From a virus, in the IMG/VR virus record IMGVR_UViG_3300042559_001123, positions 1 to 36,479 of that record: a DNA stretch of 36,479 nucleotides; one strand, given 5' to 3'. Below the pieces are notes generated by a model. The model ran no database searches and was not told where the DNA came from. It saw only the letters and a program-made list of their open reading frames with translations. Shown here in pieces: positions 95 through 35,469 of the stretch. Position 1 is the stretch's first letter; each line of letters opens with the position of its first letter. A program made the position numbers and the translations under genes.

Positions 95-190
95 AAAGAG
101 CGGAGGGGGTGGGATTCGAACCCACTTTTTCTATCTGTAAAGTGTCACCAAAATGACCCTCGGTGACAAACCCACAAATCGACCCACACC
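95..190 (-). other. Putative attP: tRNA-Ser-like 3' end plus flanking repeats
   Basis: Read on the minus strand, 125-101 is a T-arm (stem GTGGG, loop TTCGAAT, stem CCCAC) followed by the acceptor strand CCCCTCC and a G discriminator. This is the 3' end of a tRNA gene whose 5' strand would be GGAGGGG, which best fits tRNA-Ser. No anticodon or D arm follows, so it is a fragment. Next to it, 133-156 holds an inverted repeat GTCACC-N12-GGTGAC. The hexamer ACCCAC (GTGGGT on minus) occurs three times between 120 and 190. The position about 75 bp upstream of the integrase start fits an attP with the crossover in the tRNA part and arm sites beside it. Arm-site roles are inferred. Confidence 0.75.
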
Positions 191-732: not shown

Positions 733-886
733 CCCGAGCGACTATCAAGCCCCAACCGGCGGTGAGCGATGTCACCAGAACCCCGAGATCGGGAAGAGTG
801 CCGGTGGCGAGATATTCCTTCGCGCCGGTGGCGATTGCCACAACAAGAGTGAGGATTCCGAGGATCGTTGTTTTTGGGTCTTTCAT
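716..886 (-). CDS. Small holin-like membrane protein
   Basis: A 56-residue ORF beginning MKDPKTTILGILTLVVAIA. It has two hydrophobic stretches, at about residues 7-22 and 31-50, and a charged tail ending ARDASSK. The size and topology are those of a small two-segment holin. A good ribosome site (AAAGGA, 7-8 nt before the ATG) supports this start. The start overlaps the stop of the upstream lipoprotein gene as ATGA, and the 3' end overlaps the endolysin by 17 nt. It would make the membrane lesion that releases or activates the endolysin. I have not matched it to a named holin family beyond general resemblance. Confidence 0.65.
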   Translation of the reverse strand: MKDPKTTILGILTLVVAIATGAKEYLATGTLPDLGVLVTSLTAGWGLIVARDASSK

Positions 887-1050
887 TTTTTCAGTCCTTT
901 CAGTTCGGGGAGTTCGTACGAGAACCGCCCGTAGTCGGTTTCAAGCGTGAAGCGAGGTGTACCCACACCCGCGCAAGAAGAAAGAAGCAGAGTGCCGATG
1001 GCGGCGAAAAGAATTGTGAGGATTAGTGCGGCAGTCTTTCTCGGTTTCAT
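883..1050 (-). CDS. Rz1-like outer-membrane spanin lipoprotein
   Basis: A 55-residue ORF starting MKPRKTAALILTILFAAIG. It has a positively charged N-terminus, a hydrophobic core and a lipobox LSSC at residues 23-26, so it is a very likely lipoprotein with a mature part of only about 30 residues. It starts in a TCAT/ATGA overlap with the upstream membrane/coiled-coil gene and ends in an ATGA overlap with the holin-like gene. A short lipoprotein directly after a one-TM coiled-coil protein is the o-spanin arrangement, implying a Gram-negative host. The mature part is less proline-rich than classical Rz1. A near-copy of the AGGTGT-N4-ACACCT palindrome lies inside the gene (955-970). Confidence 0.65.
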   Translation of the reverse strand: MKPRKTAALILTILFAAIGTLLLSSCAGVGTPRFTLETDYGRFSYELPELKGLKK

Positions 1051-2589: not shown

Positions 2590-4433
2590 TTGATTTCAGT
2601 AATACTAATTGATGACTTCAAAGTGTTCCCAAATTCATTGGATGTGTAACCATTCAATCGCAAATAATTTGCCGTAATTGCTTCATTGAGCTTGTAAATT
2701 CTTATCGTGTAAGCAACCGCAGTCATTGCAGTTGTCGTGTACCAAAATTCCAAAGGAACAACTACTTGCGCCGCCGCCACAGGGGCATAAGCCCGCACCG
2801 AGCAAAGAAGTGTTGTTCCAGCAAATAACGCACAACCGAAATGCATTACGGGGGCGGCGGAAAAGTTTCCTTGAAACCTTATTAACAATTTTGAGGAAGA
2901 TATCTTTTTGGTAAAAGACAAACTGACAATCTGTAGTCCAGTAGTGGCAAGTGGCGCAACGGAATACCCGTTTGCCGCCGAAACAAGTTGCAAATTCGTC
3001 GCAACTCGTCCCGAAATTAAGGAAGTTTGGAGTTGAATTGGAGTTCCTGTTGCAAGTTCGCGAAAAGTAATTGCGGAATCAGCAATCTTTGCGCCAGTAA
3101 CCGCATTATCAGCAATCTTGGCGGTCGTGACATTCGCATCAGCAATCTTGGCAGTCGTGACATTCGCATCAGCAATCTTGGCAGTCGTGACATTCGCATC
3201 AGCAATCTTTGCGCCAGTAACCGCATTATCAGCAATCTTGGCGGTCGTGACATTCGCATCAGCAATCTTGGCAGTCGTGACATTCGCATCAGCAATCTTG
3301 GCGGTTGTGACATTCGCATCAGCAATCTTTGCGCCAGTAACCGCATTATCAGCAATCTTGGCGGTCGTGACATTCGCATCAGCAATCTTGGCGGTCGTGA
3401 CATTCGCATCAGCAATCTTGGCGGTCGTGACATTCGCATCAGCAATCTTGGCAGTCGTGACATTCGCATCAGCAATCTTTGCGGTTGTGACATTCGCATC
3501 AGCAATCTTGGTGGTTGTGACTGCATCGGTTGCAAGTTTTGCAGTCGTGACAGCACCATCTTGAAGAGTAGTTGTTGATGGCAGTTGCCAAGAAACAATG
3601 CCAGCAGATGAGCCAAGTATGTATTGATCCGTTGCAGGGTTGCCGCCGATTTTTGCTGGGGTGACATTCGCATCAGCAATCTTGGCGGTTGTGACATTCG
3701 CATCAGCAATCTTTGCGCCAGTAACCGCATTATCAGCAATCTTGGCGGTTGTGACATTCGCATCAGCAATCTTGGTGGTTGTGACATTCGCATCAGCAAT
3801 CTTGGCAGTCGTGACATTCGCATCAGCAATCTTGGTGGTTGTGACTGCCCCTGTTCCAATGCGTGTATCGGTAATTGTTGGCAAAGGAACAAATTGAGGA
3901 GTCCCTCCTGCCGTGTTTGCCACCAGAAAATATGGGGACGCGCCGGTCGCGGATGCGCTTGAAGTAAACTTTATTTCGTTTGCGCTATTTGTTGTCAAAA
4001 CCGAGGAGGCAATCGGTAACAAGGGAGGTTGGTTTGCTCCTACATCTGCCATCCGTAGGGATTTCGTGACTCCTCGCATTACTTCCTGCACCAACATGGT
4101 GAGTCTGTCCAAGGCGCGTTCCATAATTGAAGCGGGGAACCTGTCTCCAGTTGTGAAAGAAACCAATTGGGTTTCGGGAAGATTGCGAGTGATGGAGATT
4201 TTTGTTGTTGTAGGAACAGGTAAAAAAATCGTCACGCTCCCTCCAATTGCGCTATTTGCTCCCGAGACAGAGTAATTGGTTCCAAGCACCAAAGTGGTCA
4301 GAACATTGGTGGACGAAAGAGTCTCAACTACCAAATCCGAATTGGTAAAAAACACATAAGGAAATGGACAAACTTGATTAGCGACATTTGTGCCAGAATA
4401 CAACGCTTGCGAACCTGTAGTTGAAATAGCCAT
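2586..4433 (-). CDS. Tail fibre protein with T7-type N-terminus and TTAKIADANV repeats
   Basis: A 615-residue protein starting MAISTTGSQALYSG. Residues 1-125 resemble the virion-attachment domain of T7-like tail fibres, including FTTGDRFPASIMERALDRLT. Two blocks of decapeptide repeats (TTAKIADANV and the variant TGAKIADNAV) follow at about residues 197-260 and 295-455, separated by a short non-repetitive piece. The remaining 150 residues form a beta-rich, receptor-side tip. Repeats of this kind form fibrous trimeric shafts. The start at 4433 is preferred because the upstream ATG at 4448 lies inside a palindrome. The palindrome ends two bases before this ATG and could act as an operator. Confidence 0.85.
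   Translation of the reverse strand: MAISTTGSQALYSGTNVANQVCPFPYVFFTNSDLVVETLSSTNVLTTLVLGTNYSVSGANSAIGGSVTIFLPVPTTTKISITRNLPETQLVSFTTGDRFPASIMERALDRLTMLVQEVMRGVTKSLRMADVGANQPPLLPIASSVLTTNSANEIKFTSSASATGASPYFLVANTAGGTPQFVPLPTITDTRIGTGAVTTTKIADANVTTAKIADANVTTTKIADANVTTAKIADNAVTGAKIADANVTTAKIADANVTPAKIGGNPATDQYILGSSAGIVSWQLPSTTTLQDGAVTTAKLATDAVTTTKIADANVTTAKIADANVTTAKIADANVTTAKIADANVTTAKIADANVTTAKIADNAVTGAKIADANVTTAKIADANVTTAKIADANVTTAKIADNAVTGAKIADANVTTAKIADANVTTAKIADANVTTAKIADNAVTGAKIADSAITFRELATGTPIQLQTSLISGRVATNLQLVSAANGYSVAPLATTGLQIVSLSFTKKISSSKLLIRFQGNFSAAPVMHFGCALFAGTTLLCSVRAYAPVAAAQVVVPLEFWYTTTAMTAVAYTIRIYKLNEAITANYLRLNGYTSNEFGNTLKSSISITEIK
3078..3835. repeat. 30-bp tandem repeat arrays in the tail fibre gene
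   Basis: The word TCAGCAATCTT recurs 21 times at 30-bp spacing, 15 times from 3078 and 6 times from about 3672. Most units read GCAGTCGTGACATTCGCA before it, while the variant GCGCCAGTAACCGCATTA recurs every 120 bp near 3091, 3211 and 3331. The array therefore has a second-order period of four units. Near-identity of the units points to recent duplication or conversion. Confidence 0.95.
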
Positions 4434-4434
4434 T

Positions 4435-4450
4435 GGGTGTACGCACACCT
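4435..4450. promoter_or_regulatory. Palindrome GGGTGT-ACGC-ACACCT at the fibre gene start
   Basis: This near-perfect palindrome lies two bases upstream of the tail fibre ATG. It differs by one base from the palindrome in the capsid leader, read on the opposite strand. It would overlap the ribosome-binding region, so a bound protein or a hairpin could block initiation. The role is inferred from position and recurrence. Confidence 0.55.
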
Positions 4451-4476: not shown

Positions 4477-7400
4477 TTAATTTTCAAGGTTTTCTTTGGC
4501 GTTTTTGCCGAGGGTAAAAGCGTCTATTGCGATGTTGGAAAGCGATGTTGTCGCGGCAAGGTTTTGGTTGAAAAGACCCATGACTGATAGAATCGCTTGA
4601 AGGTCTTTCATCATGTCCTCAATGTCCCGTTCCCCGCTTAATGCGTCTGGCAGTTTCATCATGGCGCGGATCGCACGGGTCGGTGACAAGATCGATCCTG
4701 TCATGTTGTATTCACCGGCGGCGACATATGCTCCCTCCTCGATTGCCGCGCCGATAAAAGGGAGTCCGTAGAATGGTTCTGTTGCGGCGGCAAGCAACAT
4801 CCGCTTGACTGACCAATTGCGGTCATCGAACCACTCTTCATCCTCTTCATCTCGGGCGTCCCGCCATGCGTTGCGGATCAGAGAACTGAAAATAATGTTG
4901 AGCAAAAGCAGACCGGCAATCGTCCTCGTCGCTTCTCCTGCTGGTTTGTTGGCGGTGGCGTATGCCGCGAGAGCAAGGTTTTTCCTCGCCTCCGAGGCGA
5001 ATGCCCATCCTACCTTGGCGTAAGCGTTGGTTTGAGTTAGTTCAAAGATCGACCTCGCGCCCATGCGAGTTGGTTGCGCGAGGCGGTCGGTGGCGCGTTC
5101 CGCGACATTCCGCGCATACGCCCGAGCGTCTGGCTCGGTAAAACCCATCTTCTTGGCTTGCGTGAAGTGGTAGTCGAAAACAATTGCAAATGTACCGGCG
5201 GTCATCAGTCCATCGGTTCCCGATATGAGTCGCCCGATCCGAGCGACCTCGTATTTGAGCCGGTTGGGTTGTGTCGCGGCGAGACCCTCCAATGCTTGCT
5301 GGACAACCGGCGGCATCTCGCGGATGCGCCGTTGCACATATGGTGAGTTGAGTGCCTCCCCCCACCCGAGGTTGCCGGTGAGAAGTTTTGAAAGCCGCAC
5401 CACATAAGACCCTGTGGGCATCTCGGCGATTGCCGCCCCGAGTTGGGTGCTTTGAATAAGGAGAGTGCCGAGGCGACCAACAAGTGCCATTTGCGCCCCA
5501 CGCCCCGCCATGCCGGTGATCTGTTGGGAAAGGTCTAGTTGATTGCTGGCATCCCTGTTGCCTCCTTGTGCGAAGAGGTCAAGCCAGAGGTTCAGCACTT
5601 TCTTTGCTTCGATGCCGCCCTTTTCTTCGATGGCATTTTGCACCTCGCGATTTCGCAGGATGCCGTTCACCTCGGACAACATTGGCGCGTATGCCATCCA
5701 ATGTTCCATTTGCTTTGTGTGTGCGATGAATGTCTGGATTGCATCGCGGAACTGCGGCTCGGCGGTTGCAGTCCCACGGGTTCGCAATGATGACGGGTTG
5801 ATCGATGCCGCCGAAACTGGAACCCCTGTGACAGGGTCGTTAGTCATGCCCATTGGCGCGTTTTGTGGCGCGACAATGAGAGGAGAGTAGTTTTTGATTT
5901 GCGGAAGGTTGATCCCGTTAAGTTGCCGGTAAACGGAATTGATGCGTTGGTATTCTCGGTCGTAATTGTCGAGCAAGAATTGGCGAACCTCTTTTGCCTC
6001 GGGCGACAACGCGCCTTCGATCTTGTCGATGAATGCTTGGGTGTATCCCCATGCCGAAATGCGATTGCCGTTCTCGTCAAAGCGTCCTTCCATGTGACGC
6101 TTTCCATCGGATTGCATCCACATCATGGTCGCAGTCAGTCCTTCCAATTCGGAAAGTTTTAGACCATCGACCACCATGCTCATCTGCGACATATCCCATC
6201 GTAGGGATTCGCCATCGAGACGATTGCCACCGGCAAGGCGCGTGAACAGGGATTCGATTGCCTCGGTCTTGATCTGGATCGCATCCTCTTTCTGGTTGTC
6301 GGCGCGGCGTTGCAAATCTGAAACTCGGTTGGCGACCGCCGAGTTGTTTCCAAACAGCAAGCCGGTGAATTGATCCCATGACACAAGGTTGAAGAGTGCG
6401 TTTCGGAACTTTGCGCCGAGACCGGCGTCCGCCAGTTGCTTGTCTTTTCGCTTTGTCATGTCGCCGGTCTTGCCGGTCGATTGGATTGCCATGCGTTGCT
6501 CGGTTTCTCGTTGTTGACGCTTCGCAATTTCTTTTGCCCGATACTCGGCAAATCCTCGCGCCCATGTCTCTCGGAGTGCATCCACGGCGGTTGCGCGGCG
6601 GTTAGAATCCGCCCCGTTGTCTACTTTTGCGTAGCCGATCTTGCCGGTTGTTGGGTCGGTGTAGCCTTGGTATTTTGGTTTCCAGTTTCCAACCAGAGTG
6701 ACGAGTGCCGCCTCCTGCTTGAGTGCCGCTTCTTCCTCGGCGGATAGTTCGCCGGTCGCGAGTTTGTCATCGATTCCAGCAAGGTGTGCAGACACCTCCC
6801 TTGCGTTAAAGTCCCGCGCCTCTTTCAAGATTGCAAAGAGGTTCTGGATTTCCGCGCCGATGCCTTTTGGCTTTTCACCGGCCTTTGCCTTTTTGGGTTT
6901 GGCGCGTTCAAAAATGCGGTCAAGTTCGGTGTCGTATTCCTCGTTGAGGTATCGTTCCAGTTGCGCGTCTACCATCTCCACTCGTTTAACGAAGAAATCG
7001 GCAAGTGCCTTCTCACCGCCGCCAATCTTGGTGAGGGAGGAAAACCCTCCCACCTTTCCAATGACTTCCCTCGGAAGCACCTTGAGTAACCCGTCGAGTT
7101 CGGCGACTGCTTGGGCAAGTTTCTCGTATTTGACCTTCTCCCTGTAGACCGCATTGGATGCGACTCTCCGCGACTCAGAGACCTCGGAGACCTTGCGTTT
7201 CTCGGCGGCGACCTCCTGCTCTACTTGCTTCTTCCGTTCGGTGTACTTTTCGCGGATTCCCTTTTCAAGAATCTTTGCCCGATCCTTGGCATCGGCGTTG
7301 AGTTGTGCCTTGTCCTCGGAATCGATGGCATCCTCTATGCGGGAGGCGAATTGGACGGCATTGTCTTGGAGTGCGCTTTGCACCTCGGCGATCTCCTCGG

Positions 7401-20311: not shown

Positions 20312-21241
20312 TTACTTGGTGGTATCTGCGAGAATCTCGACCACACCCTTCTCAAGGAGACGGGTTGCACCCACAACCGCCGTTGAGCGGATTTGGAGTG
20401 AGTGGCGAACTTCGGGCAAGATGTCCATGTATGTCTTGCGACCGCCATCGACCATGACCGCCGAATTCTTCTGGTAAGCGATGCAGGAACGGATGTTCGA
20501 CGCAACAGGCAAGAGTTCGGTGCGGACGATTTTGAACCCAAGGAAGGAATCAACTTCGCCATCCACAAGGGCGCGAACGCTATTGTAGAGTTGGTTGGTC
20601 ACTTCTTGAGTGCCGAGGAGGTCGGCGATCTCTTTTGAGGAAACCACAAGAATGCGGTCTTCCATCGGAGCTTCGTTGGAATCGAGAACACGCTTTGCCT
20701 CGCGAATTTTCGCGATGGTCAAGCCGGTGTTGGTGGGTGTTCCGCCGCCGCCGACATAGTTGACCGCCACTTTTTGGGTGTTGGGCAGGGCAATCGTGGT
20801 GGTGGTGTTGTTAAGACCAAAACCCGCCGAGGTGTTGGCGACATTGGTGATCGTTGCGTTGCCGAGCAAAGCAGAGATCAAAACGGAATCGCAAGTGCGT
20901 CCGTATGCCGCCGCTTGAGCTTGCATGGTCTCCGAGGTCGGGAGGACAACATTCCCGAGGAAAGTGTTGTCGAACTCGTCGAACCAATTGCTGACATCGT
21001 AGGGGAGCGGGTATGCCCACCGAGCGGGTAGCGTGATGTCTTTATTGTTGGTCGCTTGATTGCGAGCCGTGACTTGATCCATGCTGGTCTGATCCATCTG
21101 GTTGAAACGAATAGCCGCGCCGTTCGCTTGAACCATCTTGGTGCGCTCTTTCAGACGGGAGTCCATCTGCTGGAGAAGCATTTGCCAGTTGGTTTCATAC
21201 TGGATCACATAGTGATCGGGAATTTGAGTGAGATTTGCCAT
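20312..21241 (-). CDS. Major capsid protein
   Basis: A 309-residue protein starting MANLTQIPDHYVIQYETNWQ. It has no signal or membrane segment. The order N-arm, long helix (QMLLQQMDSRLKERTKMVQA), beta-rich core and a C-terminal GATRLLEKGVVEILAD is that of HK97-fold capsid proteins of T7/BPP-1-like podoviruses. Position directly after scaffold and before tail tube A supports this. The start at 21241 is chosen because the upstream in-frame ATG (21328) lies in the leader and gives a non-conserved-looking extension. The ribosome site is weak, while the 170-nt leader carries an exact palindrome, suggesting separate control. Confidence 0.85.
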   Translation of the reverse strand: MANLTQIPDHYVIQYETNWQMLLQQMDSRLKERTKMVQANGAAIRFNQMDQTSMDQVTARNQATNNKDITLPARWAYPLPYDVSNWFDEFDNTFLGNVVLPTSETMQAQAAAYGRTCDSVLISALLGNATITNVANTSAGFGLNNTTTTIALPNTQKVAVNYVGGGGTPTNTGLTIAKIREAKRVLDSNEAPMEDRILVVSSKEIADLLGTQEVTNQLYNSVRALVDGEVDSFLGFKIVRTELLPVASNIRSCIAYQKNSAVMVDGGRKTYMDILPEVRHSLQIRSTAVVGATRLLEKGVVEILADTTK

Positions 21242-21410
21242 AATAGGTAAGAGTTGAGTTGAGTTTAGTTGAACTGCTTGTTCCGCTCGCCCGAGTTGTC
21301 CCGAATGGGATTCGTTATCGCGGGTCAACCCCCCCTACATGGGCCGAAAGATTGGTTGTCCTTCGGAGAAGTTAAGGTGTGCGTACACCTAAATACAAAG
21401 AGAGTCAAAT
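21242..21410 (-). promoter_or_regulatory. Capsid gene leader region
   Basis: A non-coding stretch between the scaffold terminator and the capsid start. It holds a TTGACT hexamer (21408-21403) directly after the terminator T-run and the palindrome at 21375-21390 beneath where a -10 would lie. Pyrimidine/A repeats (CAACT units) precede the ATG. A capsid promoter is likely because a strong terminator lies just upstream, but I see no good -10 hexamer. Confidence 0.5.
21375..21390. promoter_or_regulatory. Exact AGGTGT-GCGT-ACACCT palindrome in capsid leader
   Basis: An exact copy of the 6-4-6 palindrome, about 20 bp downstream of a TTGACT hexamer and 134 bp upstream of the capsid ATG. Read on the opposite strand it is 15/16 identical to the site before the tail fibre gene. 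An operator controlling late structural genes is the simplest reading. Confidence 0.6.
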
Positions 21411-21445
21411 AAAAAAAGACCCCGCCTTCCTATGAGGGCGGGGTC
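21411..21445 (-). terminator. Rho-independent terminator after the scaffold gene
   Basis: On the minus strand GACCCCGCC and GGCGGGGTC pair as a perfect 9-bp GC-rich stem around a 10-nt loop and are followed by seven T. It lies 26 nt after the scaffold stop codon. It is the clearest intrinsic terminator in the window and separates the early/packaging transcript from the capsid transcript. Confidence 0.9.
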
Positions 21446-24571: not shown

Positions 24572-25033
24572 TTAGCTACCGAGCAAAGACCCCGTGCCGG
24601 TTGCCGAATTAGCCGATGCGTTGCTGTTCAACAAAGTCGCCTTGTAGCCAAATCCCTTTGCTCTGTTTTTGTATGCCTGTTGCTGTTCCATAGAAACATC
24701 AACAGCAGAGGGAGATTGTGGCGGCGGTGGCGGTGGCGGTGGCGGCGGTGGCGGTGGCGGAGCGATTGTTACTGGTGGAGGTGCGGGGGGTGCGGCTTTT
24801 TCGGGTGGCGGTGGTTTGGGGTTGTCTTTTTTCTTTTCGCCGCCAGTAAAGAAATTTGTAACTGCTTTGACTGTTTTTTTCCACCAATTGAAAACTGCCA
24901 GTTCGGGCTTTTCGTCTTCTTTCTGCTCGGGCGGCATCCACCCATCGACCAGAGCAAAGTCAAGACCATCATTGTTTCCGAAAAGGTGTTTGCACACCTC
25001 TTCGACAAATTGTGAAATAGAATTATATGGCAT
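24572..25033 (-). CDS. Proline-rich protein between terminase and portal
   Basis: A protein of 153 residues from ATG 25033, or 164 from an in-frame GTG at 25066. Neither start has a clear ribosome site. Residues 1-55 (MPYNSISQFVEEVCKHLFGN) are a small acidic domain. A basic amphipathic segment FNWWKKTVKAVTNFFTG follows. Then comes a run of 14 consecutive prolines within a Pro-rich region, and a Ser/Asn/Ala-rich tail. The amphipathic Trp/Lys/Phe helix could touch membranes. The Pro codons form a GGN microsatellite on the plus strand (about 24720-24765). Function unknown. An exact AGGTGT-type palindrome lies in the first 50 nt of the gene. Confidence 0.6.
   Translation of the reverse strand: MPYNSISQFVEEVCKHLFGNNDGLDFALVDGWMPPEQKEDEKPELAVFNWWKKTVKAVTNFFTGGEKKKDNPKPPPPEKAAPPAPPPVTIAPPPPPPPPPPPPPPQSPSAVDVSMEQQQAYKNRAKGFGYKATLLNSNASANSATGTGSLLGS
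24984..24999. promoter_or_regulatory. Exact AGGTGT-TTGC-ACACCT palindrome near the start of the proline-rich gene
   Basis: An exact copy, 35-50 nt inside the 24572-25033 gene. Twenty-one bases here are identical to the site at 29188 although the reading frame differs (VEEVCKHL here, CKRCANTF there). That argues for selection on DNA or RNA rather than protein. Confidence 0.6.
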
Positions 25034-25077
25034 GGAGGGGCAGTAGCATTTCACAGGTAACGGCACAAGAGATTTTT

Positions 25078-26637
25078 TTATGCCTGTATCACAACTGACC
25101 GGCGTTGCTTTTGTGGATCATCCCCGCGAAATCCCATGATGACCTGTTGACCGGCTCGGCGAATAGCTTGCCGCGCCGACATGGCATCGCGATTGCCGCC
25201 TTCGACCATGCCGTGCATGACCGCCTCTGCCATCATGCGAAGCGCATCGGATGCGTGACTTGACCAATCGTGGATCGGTTCATCCATGCTCACCGCCCCT
25301 TGGTTAACGGGTCTGGTGCGGTAGTTTTCCAATGCCTCAACTCCCTTTTCGCAAGCCGGTGTGCGGAAGGTGAGGCGCGGAAACATCTGCAAGAGTCGGT
25401 TGATGCCCACCCAAATGTTTTGCGTCCTCGGGATGATTCGCGTGTTTGCGAGACCGGCATCGCGGAGTTCGGCTTGAAATGACCGGCCCGAGGTCTTGGT
25501 CGCGGCGGCATCGTGCGGGAGGTAGTGAGTGCCGAGCGGGTAGCCTTTGCTTTGCATATGCGAGATGCGTTGCACCAAGTCGCCGTCGAACCCGTAGTCG
25601 ATATCAATGAGTCTGATCTCGTCGGCGACCAGTTGAGCATACCACACAATCGTGTTCTCGGGTGATCCCAAGTCCCAAAATGTGTGAACGAGTGCGGAGT
25701 GATCCACCTCGCTCGGCTTGATGCGTCCTCGGTCGCGGAGTGCGGTGATCGCATCCCCGTAGATCGCGCCCTCGACCGGCGCGGACATTGCCTCCTCCAG
25801 AGTGCTTGGATATTCCCGCTTGATAAAAATGCCCTGCTCCAATCGCCGTGCGGCATACCAGAGTTTCTGCTCGCGGGAGAATGTCCTGCCCACCCTATCC
25901 CCAAGATCGCGGAAATACCCTTCTATGTCGGAGTTGAGTTCGCCGGTCAGTCGGATGCAAGCGGGATCGGAATGCCACGGGAAGAAGAACACACGCCCCT
26001 CGGCATTCGGATCATGCTCCAAGATCGGGCGGATCAGTTCCCAAAGGTCTCCCCCTTTGCCACCATACCAAGTGGTTTCCACGATCCGCCGCCCTTGCCG
26101 AGCCGATGGCAATGCGCCCGTGCGAATCTCGCGGGATCGCGAGAAGTCGGTTGCGGCTATTGGCCCCCATTCCGATATCCACAGCATATTCGCCGTTCCT
26201 CCTCGGGCATTCATACCGGCATACAGAGTCGAGATGCTGGTCTCCTCCTGCCCCTTCGTGAGGATGGTCATCTCGCCATCGTTGCGTTTCGGGAACTCCA
26301 TCGTGTCGAGGATTGCCGGTGGCAGAGACGAGATGCCGAATCGCATGATGTCTGCCATCTTTCGGTGGGCATCGGCTTGCGTCTGGTCAATGAGTGATCC
26401 TTTGAATCCCGAGTTGAATGCGGCGTGATCCGCCATGAACAACCCGATGGTTGTGGACATCCCGAGGCGGCGGGATTTGATGATGTAAAGCGGCTCGGTC
26501 GGTCGGTCGAGGAGATGCGAGATGACCTCCTCCTGCTCTGGTCGCGGAGAAAAACGAAACCGCTTGCCGGTGTCCTCCTGTTTAATGCTGTAGAGGTTCG
26601 ACAACCGCCACCGAGCGTCTTTGATCTCTTCCTTCAA
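25078..26637 (-). CDS. terL: Terminase large subunit
   Basis: A 519-residue DNA-packaging ATPase and nuclease. Walker A is seen as IIKSRRLGMST at about residues 52-62, and Walker B with the catalytic acid as MLWISEWG at about 151-158. The C-terminal RNase H-like nuclease shows acidic centres in TFWDLGSPENT (about 319-329), HYLPHDAAA and DWSSHASDALR. The start TTG at 26637 is chosen because GGGGAGG lies 10 nt upstream and TTGA overlaps the SSB-like stop; a TTG at 26667 is the alternative. It cuts and pumps concatemeric DNA into the portal. Confidence 0.93.
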   Translation of the reverse strand: MKEEIKDARWRLSNLYSIKQEDTGKRFRFSPRPEQEEVISHLLDRPTEPLYIIKSRRLGMSTTIGLFMADHAAFNSGFKGSLIDQTQADAHRKMADIMRFGISSLPPAILDTMEFPKRNDGEMTILTKGQEETSISTLYAGMNARGGTANMLWISEWGPIAATDFSRSREIRTGALPSARQGRRIVETTWYGGKGGDLWELIRPILEHDPNAEGRVFFFPWHSDPACIRLTGELNSDIEGYFRDLGDRVGRTFSREQKLWYAARRLEQGIFIKREYPSTLEEAMSAPVEGAIYGDAITALRDRGRIKPSEVDHSALVHTFWDLGSPENTIVWYAQLVADEIRLIDIDYGFDGDLVQRISHMQSKGYPLGTHYLPHDAAATKTSGRSFQAELRDAGLANTRIIPRTQNIWVGINRLLQMFPRLTFRTPACEKGVEALENYRTRPVNQGAVSMDEPIHDWSSHASDALRMMAEAVMHGMVEGGNRDAMSARQAIRRAGQQVIMGFRGDDPQKQRRSVVIQA

Positions 26638-26957
26638 AACGGGATGTCCTCCCCTTGTTCGGGCCAATCTTGCGCCAATGTCAGTTTCTTGGAAGGTTGG
26701 TTGACCGCCTCACGCACTTGCCTCATTCCGTCCTTCACAGGAACAATCGACTTGGCGTTGCCGAGGATCGGCATTTCCACTTTGGCGGCGCGTTCCTCTT
26801 TGGTGACCGATTGTTTGACGATGAAGTCCCCGTAGTCGCTTTGCGGGGTTTCGATAAGGACAAGGTCGCAGAAGATTGCTTTGTCCCCGTTCTTTCGAGT
26901 GATGTGCTTGAAGCGTTCCTTTTCGAGTTTGGTGACATCGATTGATAGTATGATCAT
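26634..26957 (-). CDS. Single-strand DNA-binding-like protein
   Basis: A 107-residue protein starting MIILSIDVTKLEKERFKHIT. Alternating beta strands (ILSIDVTKL, AIFCDLVLIE, DFIVKQSV) suggest an OB-fold. The C-terminus is acidic and ends EQGEDIPF, closely matching the DDDIPF tip by which bacterial SSB recruits partners. It would bind single strands during RecT recombination or replication. It starts in an ATGA overlap with the small gene upstream and ends overlapping the terminase start. Its place next to the terminase rather than recT is unusual. No clear ribosome site. Confidence 0.6.
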   Translation of the reverse strand: MIILSIDVTKLEKERFKHITRKNGDKAIFCDLVLIETPQSDYGDFIVKQSVTKEERAAKVEMPILGNAKSIVPVKDGMRQVREAVNQPSKKLTLAQDWPEQGEDIPF

Positions 26958-27130
26958 AGTGTTTTTTCGTAGTTGTAATTGAGGTTGAGCCAAGAGATTG
27001 CCTTGCCGGTTTCACCCACCTCGGCGGCGGTGACACAATTGTCGGAAACAATCCCGTGTTCTTGGAGGAGATTCATTGCTTTAACCTCATCGGTTCCTGT
27101 CAGTTTGAGGTAGATTTCAAGTTGGTTCAT
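26954..27130 (-). CDS. Small UBA/helical-like protein of unknown function
   Basis: A 58-residue acidic protein, MNQLEIYLKLTGTDEVKAMN at the start. The sequence LLQEHGIVSDNCVTAAEVG with the end WLNLNYNYEKTL suggests two or three short helices. It is joined by ATGA overlaps on both sides, which supports that it is translated. No family recognised. Confidence 0.6.
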   Translation of the reverse strand: MNQLEIYLKLTGTDEVKAMNLLQEHGIVSDNCVTAAEVGETGKAISWLNLNYNYEKTL

Positions 27131-27408
27131 CGTCGGCAAAGTCGTTGCTCTCTGGCGGCATCGAAGGCGAGGTCGGCAAGGTGGTCGCACTTGTCGCATG
27201 GCCCGAGGTTGCCGTGCGGACACGCCACGGCGACCGGCACACAATCCGCCAGCACCGGCTCGGGCATTGGCTCGGGATCGGGTTGCAATTCGATGCGGTG
27301 TTTGCACACCCTGCACAAGCAAGCCCCATCGTCCAGCACTTGCATTTCCTCGTCGCAACACTCGGGAACCTCTGGTTCCTCGGGCGGATCGTTCCAGTAG
27401 TCGATCAT
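27127..27408 (-). CDS. Cysteine-rich, probably zinc-binding phage protein
   Basis: A 93-residue acidic protein starting MIDYWNDPPEEPEVPECCDE. Two sets of metal-ligand-like residues are visible: CCDEEM...CLCRVCKHR (about residues 17-39) and CPHGNLGPCDKCDHL (about 63-77). A Pro/Glu linker (PDPEPMPEPV) joins them. This looks like two small zinc ribbons. Similar short proteins occur in early regions of podoviruses, but I know no function. ATGA overlaps on both sides place it in the same translational chain. A palindrome copy lies inside. Confidence 0.6.
   Translation of the reverse strand: MIDYWNDPPEEPEVPECCDEEMQVLDDGACLCRVCKHRIELQPDPEPMPEPVLADCVPVAVACPHGNLGPCDKCDHLADLAFDAAREQRLCRR
27296..27311. 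promoter_or_regulatory. CGGTGT-TTGC-ACACCC palindrome copy
   Basis: It keeps GGTGT-TTGC-ACACC exactly, with the outer pair changed compensatorily (C and C instead of A and T on the ends, so the outermost bases no longer pair). It lies inside the zinc-protein gene, where Cys-x-x-Cys codons may partly explain the sequence. Confidence 0.4.
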
Positions 27409-27671
27409 AGTTTCTCGTCCAGCAGTTTGAGGACTCCGAGCCAATTTTGCTTGGTCTTGAAATAAATCTCCATCGTGGTTGATCCGCCAGACCCTCCACT
27501 ACTTTCGACCAAATATATGTCTATTCCATACAAACTCGTATCGTCCTTGTAAGCGTAATAACCTTTGAAATCGATCTGGTTGAAGCAGAACATCACAAAC
27601 CCATCGACATAGATTTTGATGCGACCATTAAAGATTTTGAGATTGTAGGAATGTTTCGGTGCGGCGGTCAT
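27405..27671 (-). CDS. Small beta-rich protein of unknown function
   Basis: An 88-residue protein starting MTAAPKHSYNLKIFNGRIKI. Aromatic-rich strands (YVDGFVMFCFNQIDFKGYYA) and a glycine/serine loop (ESSGGSGGSTT) suggest a small beta-sandwich, followed by a C-terminal helix. Local composition is more AT-rich than its neighbours. It is held by ATGA overlaps to the small-terminase candidate upstream and the zinc protein downstream. No family recognised. Confidence 0.55.
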   Translation of the reverse strand: MTAAPKHSYNLKIFNGRIKIYVDGFVMFCFNQIDFKGYYAYKDDTSLYGIDIYLVESSGGSGGSTTMEIYFKTKQNWLGVLKLLDEKL

Positions 27672-28093
27672 AGGTCAGTCCTTCCGTCCCGAATCTCGCG
27701 CATGAGTTTGGCAATCGGGTCTTCCACCGAATGGGTGACTTCGACCTGTTGCTTTTCCAACCCGTGTATTTTGGCAAGTTGCGCTTCGATAGTCGCGGCG
27801 GTTCGGTAGTCAAATCGGGCGAGGCACTCCTGTTGCATTCGCAGGAGTCTCTCGACCGCCTTGGAAACCTCGGCCTTGCGGTTCATGTCGAATTCCGAAG
27901 CAATCTTGGTATTTGCCTCGGCGATGTAGCGGTTTGCCGTGGAAGCAGAGCAATGGAACTCTATCCCACAAATTCCCACGATTTGCCGGTTGGTCATGCC
28001 GTTGAGCAGTAGCTCGGCAACACGCTCGATACGCATTACCAAGTCCGCCTCGGCGGTTCGTTTTCCTCGGGTTTTTGGTTTAGTTGTTTTCAT
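27668..28093 (-). CDS. Small terminase subunit candidate
   Basis: A 141-residue basic-then-acidic protein. An N-terminal Lys/Arg tail is followed by a helix-turn-helix at about residues 20-62 (LLLNGMTNRQIVGICG, then STANRYIAEAN). After it come a helical oligomerisation-like region and a C-terminal part ending QVEVTHSVEDPIAKL. HTH plus coiled middle plus a tail of this type is the usual small-terminase plan, used to recognise the packaging site. It is separated from terL by four small genes rather than adjacent, which is the main doubt. A general HTH regulator is the alternative. Confidence 0.6.
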   Translation of the reverse strand: MKTTKPKTRGKRTAEADLVMRIERVAELLLNGMTNRQIVGICGIEFHCSASTANRYIAEANTKIASEFDMNRKAEVSKAVERLLRMQQECLARFDYRTAATIEAQLAKIHGLEKQQVEVTHSVEDPIAKLMREIRDGRTDL

Positions 28094-28541
28094 AATGTAG
28101 CGGGAAGAAATGCTTGATTGGGATGTTGATCATTGGTTCGTTGTCTTTTTTGGATCGCGCCGTTTTTTTCCGTTCCATCCAAGTCACTCTCTTGTGTTCA
28201 ATATCTCCTATTCTTGTCCAAAATATCCCGTCATTGAATTTAACAAATAAAAGGGTTGGAAGAACTAATGCATACCGCATCGCGGAAATGTATTTTTGCA
28301 AAGACCAATCGAATGTAGGGAAATGCTTGAGGGCATTCTTGCGAACACGCGCCTCGGCAAATGCCACCACATCGCGCCTGTTTTTGGTCAAGACCGCATC
28401 GATGGGATAGGCGACCGGCGTGTAGATCGGAATCAAACCAAGAAGTTTCGCGGCATGGTTAATGATCCGCGCCTCGTTTTCGCGATCCTGTTCGGTTTCA
28501 TGGAGGGGAATTTTCTCCTCATGCTCGGGGTAGTCTGTCAT
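28080..28541 (-). CDS. PD-(D/E)XK-like nuclease
   Basis: A 153-residue protein. The N-terminal helix RENEARIINHAAKLLG (Glu 23), the strand YPIDAVL (Asp 48) and the next strand VVAFAEARVRKN (Glu 63 with Arg 65 where Lys is usual) fit the core of PD-(D/E)XK nucleases. The helix FDWSLQKYISAMRYA and strand TLLFVKFNDGIFWTRI complete the fold. It could resolve or trim recombination or replication intermediates. The start overlaps the dnaC-like stop by ATGA, and the end overlaps the small-terminase start by 14 nt. AT content is higher than in flanking genes. Confidence 0.6.
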   Translation of the reverse strand: MTDYPEHEEKIPLHETEQDRENEARIINHAAKLLGLIPIYTPVAYPIDAVLTKNRRDVVAFAEARVRKNALKHFPTFDWSLQKYISAMRYALVLPTLLFVKFNDGIFWTRIGDIEHKRVTWMERKKTARSKKDNEPMINIPIKHFFPLHYENN

Positions 28542-29242
28542 ATTCTCACAATGTTGTGGAACTCACTCCCCATGCGGCGAATGAGTGCGTCTGCTCGGTC
28601 TGGCGACATCATGGCATGGAGGGCTTTCGCGTTGCTGTTGGATGTCCAGATGGTCGGGCGAAGGTTGCCGGTGCGGGTCTCGAAAAGGTCGTAGAGCATA
28701 GACTCGGATCGGTCTGTGAACTTACCCTTGCCGAGGTCATCCAGCACCAGCACCTCGGCAATCATCGACCGGCGGATTTTTTCATTCGACCGGCTTTTGA
28801 CCTCGGGATCGTCTGAAAACAAATTCGCGGCGGCGGCGGCGAGGTCGGTTGCGGCGATCCAATAGACCTTGCGCCCCTCGGCTACCATCCGCATGGCGAC
28901 CAAGAAAGCGGCTCGGGTTTTCCCTTCGCCACTCTTCCCCATGAATCCAATACCCTTTGGCCCGTATCGGTATGCCGCCGCCGTTTGCGCGAGGTTGGCG
29001 TGTATGCGCTCGGGGTCGGTGTTATGGTATACCGGCGGCACAGACTCTAAAAAAGAGGCTACACGAGCGTTTTGGCGCGATTCGCGATCCTGCTGGTCAC
29101 GCTCCTTCGTTAGGATTGTAACGCACTCGTCGCACCATTGCGGGGTGAAGAGTTCTTTGCCGTTGTAATGCACGGGGGGATATTCAAAGGTGTTTGCACA
29201 CCTCTTGCAAATAGCAATGTGATGTTCAGAAGTGATCTGCAT
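28538..29242 (-). CDS. DnaC-like helicase loader ATPase
   Basis: A 234-residue AAA+ protein. N-terminal cysteines 12, 15, 37 and 40 (CKRC...CDEC) form a likely zinc finger. Walker A is GKSGEGKT at 102-109 and Walker B VLVLDDLGK at about 164-172. A sensor-like TIWTSNSN and an arginine-rich helix ALIRRMGSEF follow. This is the layout of phage DnaC-type loaders that place the host DnaB helicase on the phage origin. It overlaps the DUF1376 gene by 17 nt, the usual partner. It tells that the phage uses host replication machinery. Confidence 0.88.
   Translation of the reverse strand: MQITSEHHIAICKRCANTFEYPPVHYNGKELFTPQWCDECVTILTKERDQQDRESRQNARVASFLESVPPVYHNTDPERIHANLAQTAAAYRYGPKGIGFMGKSGEGKTRAAFLVAMRMVAEGRKVYWIAATDLAAAAANLFSDDPEVKSRSNEKIRRSMIAEVLVLDDLGKGKFTDRSESMLYDLFETRTGNLRPTIWTSNSNAKALHAMMSPDRADALIRRMGSEFHNIVRI
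29188..29203. promoter_or_regulatory. Exact AGGTGT-TTGC-ACACCT palindrome in the dnaC-like gene
   Basis: It lies 40-55 nt inside the helicase-loader gene and shares a 21-bp identical block with the site at 24984, in another reading frame. Here it encodes the first cysteines of the zinc finger. Confidence 0.6.
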
Positions 29243-33102: not shown

Positions 33103-33197
33103 AGTCTTTTGAGGATGGAGGTGTATTTGTGTGTCGGCTCGGATTTGAACCGCCCCACCCCGAGCCAGAGGGCGATGGCGACGATAATTTTCTTCAT
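33099..33197 (-). CDS. Very small protein with hydrophobic N-terminus
   Basis: A 32-residue ORF, MKKIIVAIALWLGVGRFKSE followed by a basic tail. Lys-Lys plus a hydrophobic core looks like a signal peptide or short membrane anchor. It is supported by exact ATGA overlaps with genes on both sides, matching the surrounding chain. No family can be assigned to so short a protein. Confidence 0.5.
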   Translation of the reverse strand: MKKIIVAIALWLGVGRFKSEPTHKYTSILKRL

Positions 33198-33361
33198 TGG
33201 TGGGATTCAATTAGCCGGTCGAGGTCGGCAATCTTGACAAGGCGGACTCGACCGATCTTTGCTGGCTTGAGCTTCCCGCACTCGATCCACCGATAGAGTG
33301 TGCGAAGTCCGATGGAGGCGTATGCCGCCGCATCCTCTGGGCGAAGGTAGGCGGGTTTCAT
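33194..33361 (-). CDS. Excisionase-like HTH (HTH_17/MerR-type) protein
   Basis: A 55-residue protein starting MKPAYLRPEDAAAYASIGLR. The pattern LRPEDAAAYASIGLRTLYRW, then CGKLKPAKIGRVRLVKIADL, is that of single-domain winged HTH proteins such as excisionases. With an integrase in the genome it is the best candidate for the recombination directionality factor. It could also be a transcription regulator. It directly follows the RHH run and starts in an ATGA overlap. Confidence 0.75.
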   Translation of the reverse strand: MKPAYLRPEDAAAYASIGLRTLYRWIECGKLKPAKIGRVRLVKIADLDRLIESHQ

Positions 33362-33486
33362 TGGCGCAGGACTGCTCGTCGAATGAACTCGGAGAGGGAG
33401 AGTCCCGTCCGCTTTGCTTCCCGCTTTGCCCAAATCGCGAGTTGCTTTTCGAGGCGGATGGATAGTGGGGTTCGGCATGGTTTCAT
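33358..33486 (-). CDS. Ribbon-helix-helix mini-protein 5
   Basis: A 42-residue ORF, MKPCRTPLSIRLEKQLAIWA at the start. It has the minimal RHH plan: a strand PLSIRL, a first helix EKQLAIWAKREAKRTG, and a second helix LSLSEFIRRAVLRQ. Length is the lower limit for an Arc/CopG dimer. ATGA overlaps at both ends tie it to the neighbouring RHH gene and the excisionase-like gene. The word TGGTTACTAAAACCT lies five bases upstream of its ATG and would cover the ribosome site. Confidence 0.7.
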   Translation of the reverse strand: MKPCRTPLSIRLEKQLAIWAKREAKRTGLSLSEFIRRAVLRQ

Positions 33487-33674
33487 TTTGTGGTTACTAA
33501 AACCTTTTCCAAAAAAAATTCGACTTGTCTGCTGGTCGGTCGTTTCCCAAGTCGAGCTTCACTTCTTATTTTTTCGACCAGTTCTCTTGGTAGCCGAATG
33601 GCGAATAGAGTCTTTGGTTGCTTGCGCGATTTGGAGGTAGTCTTCTGGTGTGAGGATGGTTTTTCTTGTTGCAT
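33483..33674 (-). CDS. Ribbon-helix-helix mini-protein 4
   Basis: A 63-residue basic protein. The first 24 residues (MQQEKPSSHQKTTSKSRKQP) are a charged tail. The RHH part is the strand TLFAIRLP, the helix RELVEKIRSEARLGKR and the helix TSRQVEFFLEKVLV. Its first 115 nt overlap the 3' part of the preceding RHH gene in another frame, an overprinting not seen elsewhere in the cluster. The stop codon overlaps the next RHH start by ATGA. No ribosome site is obvious. Confidence 0.65.
   Translation of the reverse strand: MQQEKPSSHQKTTSKSRKQPKTLFAIRLPRELVEKIRSEARLGKRPTSRQVEFFLEKVLVTTK
33491..33505. promoter_or_regulatory. TGGTTACTAAAACCT copy before RHH gene 5
   Basis: An exact copy, ending five bases upstream of the ATG of the 42-residue RHH gene and inside the end of RHH gene 4. 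GGTT and AACC form a short inverted repeat around ACTAA, suitable for a dimeric RHH protein. Confidence 0.55.
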
Positions 33675-33807
33675 GGGTGAGTGTCTCTTCAACAAATGCG
33701 GTGATGGTTAAGCCACGGGTTTTAGCCGCACGGCGAACACGCATGGCAAGAGTTCTCGGGATGTAAAACCCAATGACTTCTTTGTCTGGTGAGTGTTGGT
33801 TTGGCAT
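33559..33807 (-). CDS. Ribbon-helix-helix protein 3
   Basis: An 82-residue protein starting MPNQHSPDKEVIGFYIPRTL. The strand VIGFYIP, the helix RTLAMRVRRAAKTRG and the helix LTITAFVEETLTHAT form an RHH domain. A basic C-terminal extension (THATRKTILTPEDYLQIAQA, then RTGRKNKK) follows. The N-terminus MPNQ and the codons behind it repeat those of the next upstream RHH gene, suggesting duplication. Its 3' half is overprinted by RHH gene 4. A copy of TGGTTACTAAAACCT lies 20 nt upstream of the start. Confidence 0.7.
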   Translation of the reverse strand: MPNQHSPDKEVIGFYIPRTLAMRVRRAAKTRGLTITAFVEETLTHATRKTILTPEDYLQIAQATKDSIRHSATKRTGRKNKK

Positions 33808-33826
33808 GGAGTGAATTCCTAATTGA

Positions 33827-33865
33827 TGGTTACTAAAACCTGCAACAGATTTTTTTTGCAGGTTT
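33827..33865. promoter_or_regulatory. TGGTTACTAAAACCT copy fused to a 10-bp hairpin
   Basis: The 15-bp word (33827-33841) overlaps a perfect stem AAACCTGCAA / TTGCAGGTTT (33836-33845 and 33856-33865) with a 10-nt loop. On the plus strand a T-rich tract (CTATTTTTTGTTGTTTTT) follows, as in a terminator. On the minus strand the stem precedes RHH gene 3. The 114-nt gap in which it lies is the largest break in the early gene chain, so it may hold a promoter/operator. Confidence 0.6.
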
Positions 33866-33921
33866 CTATTTTTTGTTGTTTTTCCGCTTGACTCCCGCAT
33901 GGGGACTGGATTTGCGGACGA

Positions 33922-34080
33922 TTATTTTTTTTTTGAATCTCGGTGTTCGGTCAATTTTTGCCGAATGATCTCGGTCATGTTTGTGCCTTGTTTTTTGGCA
34001 AGGGCGGCAAGCATCTTGCGCTCCTCGGGAAGTAGCCAGATGGCGATCCTCGTCTTCTTGGGGTCTCTTTGGTTTGGCAT
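33922..34080 (-). CDS. Ribbon-helix-helix mini-protein 2
   Basis: A 52-residue protein, MPNQRDPKKTRIAIWLLPEE at the start. The strand KTRIAIWLLP, the helix EERKMLAALAKKQG and the helix TNMTEIIRQKLTEHR are a clean RHH fold of Arc/CopG size. AAGGA lies 9 nt upstream, inside the end of the preceding gene. The last codons lie in a run of ten A, where polymerase slippage could change the C-terminus. Its MPNQ start matches RHH protein 3. Confidence 0.75.
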   Translation of the reverse strand: MPNQRDPKKTRIAIWLLPEERKMLAALAKKQGTNMTEIIRQKLTEHRDSKKK

Positions 34081-34083
34081 AAT

Positions 34084-34260
34084 TCAAATCCTTTCGGCGA
34101 TGTATTCGCCACGGGTCTTGTCCCCTCGCCGGTGGTCGAGCCGATCCCATTCCTTCTGGGTCATTGTGACCGATTTGAGGATGCGGGTGCGCCCTTTGCC
34201 GGTTCCCGCCTTGCGCCCCGCGCCTTTGCGCTTTCCGCCGTGTGTTGGTTTTTTTTTCAT
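34084..34260 (-). CDS. Ribbon-helix-helix-like mini-protein 1
   Basis: A 58-residue very basic protein, MKKKPTHGGKRKGAGRKAGT at the start. The GGKRKGAGRK N-terminal tail is common in phage RHH-like proteins. It is followed by a strand RILKSVTMT, a helix QKEWDRLDHRRG and a second helix TRGEYIAERI. The domain is short but ordered as RHH. It starts in an ATGA overlap with the gene upstream and ends three bases before RHH gene 2. Confidence 0.6.
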   Translation of the reverse strand: MKKKPTHGGKRKGAGRKAGTGKGRTRILKSVTMTQKEWDRLDHRRGDKTRGEYIAERI

Positions 34261-35354: not shown

Positions 35355-35382
35355 AATCTACACCATCTTGAATTCGCGTCAA
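35355..35382 (-). promoter_or_regulatory. Sigma70-like early promoter
   Basis: On the minus strand TTGACG (-35, 35382-35377) and TAGATT (-10, 35360-35355) are spaced by 16 bp. The expected start is about 50 nt before the first early ATG. The region upstream (35383-35469) is AT-rich and non-coding. It is the best promoter-like sequence in the window and could drive the whole overlapping chain of early genes. Confidence 0.65.
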
Positions 35383-35469
35383 TACACTTTTTCAAATTAT
35401 TTTTATGCCTCGCGGAACCGCATGGATGCTGACTCTGCGGTCGAGTAGGATTTTTTTCTGAAAAATATT

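Follow-up and report, generated by a model that had tools for sequence, protein, structure and literature searches.

Dispersed palindromic sites in the genome of an uncultivated phage lineage as candidate operators or roadblocks

The stretch of DNA considered here (the window, 36,479 nucleotides) is the IMG/VR virus record IMGVR_UViG_3300042559_001123, and the element in question is a short palindromic site, RGGTGT-N4-ACACCY, dispersed over it. Nearly all genes of the window lie on the minus strand. They encode an integrase, an excisionase-like protein, RecT, a PD-(D/E)XK nuclease, a DnaC-like loader, terminase, portal, capsid and tail proteins and a virion-type protein of 3206 residues. The capsid protein is about 33% identical to those of HTVC010P-type pelagiphages; the integrase matches only Akkermansia phages (28% identity), which is the sole pointer to Verrucomicrobiota. 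The lineage is best read as one of temperate podovirus-like phages, since the integrase, the excisionase-like gene and an attP candidate resembling a tRNA 3' end fit a temperate phage. Two relatives, G001 (38.1 kb) and G005 (37.1 kb), are near full length and circularly permuted relative to the window.

The initial annotation had pointed to a 21-bp block identical in two unrelated genes but read in different frames, and this proved exact. The 21-mer AAGAGGTGTGCAAACACCTTT matches the minus strand of the window without mismatch at two places, 24982-25002 and 29186-29206, where it is read as EEVCKHL (gene at 24572-25033) and as KRCANTF (DnaC-like gene, 28538-29242), respectively; it occurred in 0 of 100 shuffles, even when 3 mismatches were allowed. 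The block is the visible part of a larger feature. Outside the palindrome its flanking bases differ between the 24982 and 29186 loci in relatives, and the shared unit is the 14-16 bp palindrome.

Exact GGTGTNNNNACACC sites are found seven times in the window (at 956, 4436, 6783, 21376, 24985, 27297 and 29189), against a mononucleotide expectation of 0.036 for GGTGTN4ACACC. One-mismatch copies and matches to the reversed pattern, used as a control, are both absent from the window. In 200 Markov shuffles GGTGT-N4-ACACC occurred at most once, and no class of any sequence reached more than three copies. Among all palindromes with 5-base arms and spacers of 0-12 it is the single clear outlier, and the only enriched class of 5-N4-5 geometry. 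The palindromic sites are therefore not a chance occurrence, and the two copies first seen belong to a larger family. A restriction or methylation site was considered and rejected, ten fixed bases being far too long for typical systems, whose sites tend to be avoided rather than enriched.

Five of the seven sites lie inside coding sequence, and all three reading frames are used. Site 1 (955-970, core 956-969) is located inside the gene of a 55-residue lipoprotein (883-1050, minus strand; frame GVGTP). Site 2 (4435-4450, core 4436-4449) directly follows the stop codon of the 3206-residue gene, 2-5 nt upstream of the ATG of the fibre gene. Site 3 (6782-6797, core 6783-6796) is deep within the 3206-residue virion-type gene (9.6 kb; frame EVSAHL), with codons invariant in five phages. 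Site 4 (21375-21390, core 21376-21389) is intergenic and overlaps the -10 position of the capsid-gene promoter. Site 5 (24984-24999, core 24985-24998) stands near the start of the gene at 24572-25033, between terL and the portal gene (frame EVCKHL). Site 6 (27296-27311, core 27297-27310) falls between terS and terL, in a gene of Cys-rich, zinc-ribbon-like type (frame VCKH); it is a third copy with the GCAA spacer, beyond the two 21-mer loci. Site 7 (29188-29203, core 29189-29202) lies in the DnaC-like gene, 40 nt past the ATG (frame KRCANT).

The site is present in every contig of the clade that was found (12/12 related contigs), with seven copies each in G001 and G005, as in the window, at syntenic positions. 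The slot in dnaC (codon 14) is occupied in 5/5 genomes, always 40 nt past the ATG, and the slot upstream of the capsid gene in all contigs covering that region; the terS-terL slot is occupied in 4/5 genomes and missing in G001. Further shared slots are residue ~2433 of the large virion protein, the gene between terL and the portal gene, the small lipoprotein gene (G001 and G005) and the start of the fibre gene (G001, G005 and L058). G001, G003 and G004 carry one more copy, at or close to the start of the portal gene. GGTGT-N4-ACACC is absent from phages with 34-59% terminase identity, from HTVC010P and from one Akkermansia phage, and scans of the outgroups and HTVC010P revealed no clear equivalent palindrome class, the classes in the outgroup G018 being clustered repeats; the same scan of the Akkermansia phage was swamped by a run of N. 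Other matches to the 16-mer in IMG/VR are single sites in unrelated contigs, consistent with chance. No mention of the motif was found in a literature search.

Two-copy short repeats often arise by chance, so that chance or a recent duplication between two coding regions could have been proposed for the 21-mer. This explanation is refuted for practical purposes: there are seven sites, they are syntenic in relatives, shuffles give none, and the flanks at the two loci are unrelated. The recent copying event offered by the initial annotation is likewise rejected, because the arms are retained in relatives, and the spacers and flanks of the two loci vary independently of each other.

Over 42 sites the ten arm bases are invariant, most sites have R before and Y after them, and the four spacer bases vary. 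This set was gathered by exact arm match and includes some near-identical contigs; the invariance carries weight chiefly because near-miss copies are almost absent from the syntenic slots. In the dnaC block, variation is confined to the spacer codon (GCA, GCC or ACA, including a change of Ala to Thr). In the gene between terL and the portal gene the arm codons are fixed, and the spacer alters Cys/Tyr and Lys/Gln/Ala. In the large virion gene, GAG GTG TCT GCA CAC is fixed in five phages and neighbouring synonymous sites vary. Conservation of third-codon positions inside the block thus agrees with the initial prediction: all informative codons are invariant in dnaC (4/4) and in the virion gene (5/5), and 11 of 112 and 4 of 181 comparable windows, respectively, are as conserved, a test that with only five genomes is modest by itself.

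Conservation of a slot across unrelated genes is judged to be stronger evidence than these synonymous windows. In the window and in G005 the site some 520-640 bp upstream of terL falls within the Cys-rich zinc-ribbon-like gene (frame VCKH); in G002 and G004 the same slot holds a gene of the PTPS/QueD family (Pfam PF01242, E 5.7e-32), which carries the site in frame WCANT. BLASTP detects no similarity between the zinc-ribbon-like and PTPS/QueD proteins. As judged from these comparisons, the sites are kept by selection at fixed map positions, independent of the frame and of the gene that occupies the slot, and a DNA-level role of the palindrome is very probable. The PTPS/QueD-family gene itself (L056:8080-8463, minus strand; same slot in G004, a Cys-rich gene instead in the window) has a possible link to 7-deazaguanine DNA modification.

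The palindrome could also act as RNA, an mRNA stem of 5-6 bp with a tetraloop serving translation, decay or termination. The sites do fold as hairpins, with GCAA loops at three window sites. Against this, 42/42 sites have invariant arms and show neither compensatory nor G-U changes (in a set collected by exact arm match), the loops are not conserved and occur in both orientations, no T-run follows, and there is no Rfam match. An RNA hairpin is accordingly very improbable, and of the DNA- or RNA-level role originally suggested the DNA half is borne out by seven syntenic sites, three frames and unrelated genes in one slot, while the RNA half is disfavoured by identical arms that show no compensatory change.

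The capsid slot indicates what the site could do. Upstream of the capsid gene the order is a terminator hairpin with a T-run, TTGAC, exactly 14 nt, GGTGTAYGCACACC and a conserved leader. The intrinsic terminator hairpin (21418-21445, minus strand) is immediately upstream of the promoter, and the -35 element TTGAC (21404-21408, minus strand) precedes site 4 by exactly 14 nt. Under standard sigma70 geometry, the palindrome covers an extended -10 element (TGTAYGCA); the spacer is restricted to AYGC at the capsid slot only, as a -10 would require. A pattern search for TTGAC-N14-GGTGTAYGCACACC in 2.9 million viral contigs retrieved 12, namely 11 of this clade and one coding coincidence; one of the 11, L107, is new, with a capsid protein 80% identical. 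The leader (about 130 nt, 21241-21370, minus strand) precedes the capsid ATG, the true start being at 21241 and not at the TTG at 21328, and contains a hairpin (21344-21366, minus strand) with a paired change in G001 (CCGAAG/CTTTCGG versus CTGAAG/CTTCAG). The same TTGAC-N14 geometry recurs downstream of int, where it is followed by TGTAGATT and has no palindrome; this promoter is conserved in three genomes (window ~35370-35390, minus strand; L049:6317-6347; L051:16390-16420).

The seven copies could best be explained as dispersed 16-bp operators or roadblocks, similar to stoperators, for a putative repressor, and a probability of about 0.55 is assigned to this explanation. It is preferred because an invariant symmetric site at a -10 region is accompanied by dispersed copies in downstream, mostly late genes. 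A symmetric DNA-binding protein, dimeric or tetrameric, would occupy the sites. At the capsid promoter the putative repressor would silence transcription by covering the -10 element, and at the sites within or just before other, mostly late genes it would act as a roadblock, either to polymerase in elongation or to cryptic promoters. Late genes could thereby stay off in the prophage state or in the early phase of infection, as with the stoperators of mycobacteriophage L5 and the SPBRE elements of SP-beta.

Several observations weigh against operators and roadblocks. Just one of the seven sites stands at a recognisable promoter, and the -10 of the capsid promoter, TAYGCA, is a poor one. The proteins searched include no recognisable repressor of CI or L5 type. 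The early operon, which encodes small ribbon-helix-helix (RHH) proteins, has no site at its promoter, where an autoregulated lysogeny repressor would be expected. The lack of sites in the early fifth of the genome carries no statistical weight (about 0.8^7 = 0.2).

The poor -10 leaves activation instead of repression as a reading of the capsid promoter, which may be under positive control. More generally, an activator or an alternative RNA polymerase could recognise the palindrome at late promoters, as the fixed TTGAC-N14 spacing kept in spite of the poor sigma70 match and the position of several sites at or just upstream of gene starts (the fibre gene; the portal gene in G003 and G004) would allow. 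Such positive control is improbable: the palindrome is centred near -9, the usual place of repressors rather than activators, and sites such as that at 6783 are deep inside genes and lack promoter-like context.

The missing site at the early operon and the want of an obvious phage repressor can also be taken to mean that there is no dedicated phage protein. A regulator or nucleoid protein of the host (LexA-, MatP- or ParB-like) would then bind the sites, being exploited by the phage or organising prophage DNA. The 5-N4-5 geometry is typical of LexA-type operators, and MatP, which has an RHH domain, uses dispersed palindromes. Restriction of the sites to one phage clade, with none in its outgroups or an Akkermansia phage, speaks against a host protein, as does the verrucomicrobial LexA motif (TGTTC-N4-GAACA), which differs from the site. 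Host regulation in general is considered unlikely, though less so than positive control; a LexA box in particular was rejected on account of its motif.

Being dispersed, mostly intragenic, palindromic and orientation-free, the sites might alternatively form a partition or genome-organising element (a dispersed centromere, DNA looping or packaging) rather than operators. N15-type plasmid prophages have dispersed SopB sites. This seems still less probable than positive control, since the proteins searched gave no recognisable ParA or ParB and the phage carries an integrase, an excisionase-like gene and a tRNA-like attP candidate. In addition, every clade contig covering the capsid slot has its site there in exact register with a promoter.

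If the sites are operators or roadblocks, a speculative further step is that the binder is one of five small RHH proteins of the early operon, all encoded on the minus strand: RhhA (34084-34260), RhhB (33922-34080), RhhC (33559-33807), RhhD (33483-33674) and RhhE (33358-33486). RhhE scores above the Pfam RHH_1 cut-off and the profile matches of the other four are weaker; RhhA and RhhB are RHH-like, RhhC has only a weak Arc/CopG/MatP-like match, and the predicted fold of RhhD is of low confidence and uninformative. PDB sequence searches with RhhD and RhhE gave no matches. The RHH run is found in all three near-full-length genomes and is absent from the outgroups, a co-occurrence with the sites that is weak evidence, as three genomes cover the region and other clade-specific genes would share the pattern. 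An RHH protein as the putative binder is thus a separate and tentative guess, with the excisionase-like HTH_17 gene (33194-33361, minus strand) as an alternative candidate. As an observation in its own right, five consecutive genes of 42-82 residues, several of them overlapping, followed by a helix-turn-helix gene (33358-34260 for RhhA-E; also in G001 and G005), represent an unusual density of miniature DNA-binding proteins.

Near the integrase gene, the tRNA-3'-end-like sequence at 100-125, between g1 and int, is likely the attP core. Beside it (window 100-170; also the g1-int intergenic region of G001 and G005) there are TGTCACC/GGTGACA inverted repeats conserved in three genomes, and more GTGTCACC copies are found near int in G001 and G005; these repeats and copies are candidate integrase or excisionase arm sites. 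In the fibre gene (window 3027-3900, minus strand) a 30-bp repeat that encodes decapeptides of the TAKIADANVT type is present in about 20 copies. Scanning genome contigs with the capsid and terminase found no prophage.

Sequence alone could in this way expose the sites through which a lineage of uncultivated temperate phages is regulated. The palindrome provides a clean case of a putative DNA-binding site dictating protein sequence, with the same 14 bases in three frames and unrelated genes in one slot. The boldest version, a symmetric intragenic stoperator system run by tiny RHH proteins, in which palindromes outlast gene replacement, dictate codons and silence late genes by roadblock with no classical repressor, is unlikely as a whole. 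If an RHH protein is indeed the binder, proteins of 42-82 residues would offer a minimal route to genome-wide prophage silencing that needs no classical repressor.

Among known systems, the stoperators of mycobacteriophage L5 and cluster A phages are short sites for a repressor, scattered over the genome of a temperate phage both at promoters and elsewhere, and are proposed to halt both initiation and elongation (PMC9283540). The sites described here resemble them in the many dispersed copies of one short site (seven in the window, also in G001 and G005) and in the presence of a copy at a promoter, that of the capsid gene (TTGAC-N14-site, 11 contigs). L5 sites are 13-bp and asymmetric, number more than 20 per genome, lie in short intergenic gaps, are oriented with transcription and are bound by a monomer, whereas the present sites are symmetric, have spacers in both orientations, number seven per genome and are intragenic in 5/7 cases in the window. 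They are not classified as L5-type stoperators, because the oriented asymmetry and intergenic location that mark the L5 kind are lacking.

The SPBRE of SP-beta is a repeated 15-bp element scattered over the prophage, which was seen in silico long before the master repressor MrpR was identified (PMC10516654). It is likewise a short repeated element dispersed over a phage genome; unlike the present sites, it lies in promoter and intergenic regions and is bound by a protein of the tyrosine-recombinase fold, and both sequence and location differ.

MatP and matS share with the candidate system dispersed palindromic sites and a protein with an RHH domain. The matS site is chromosomal, 13 bp long and unrelated in sequence, and no MatP homologue was recognised in the phage. 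The Arc/Mnt operators of P22 are palindromic, of similar size and bound by small RHH repressors of the phage, and the candidate RHH proteins here would be of the same fold class. Those operators are confined to a single control region, with none scattered through late genes, and their sequence is different. Features of RHH (Arc/CopG) operators that are found here are the two half-sites of RGGTGT-N4-ACACCY and an RHH protein, RhhE, encoded by the same phage.

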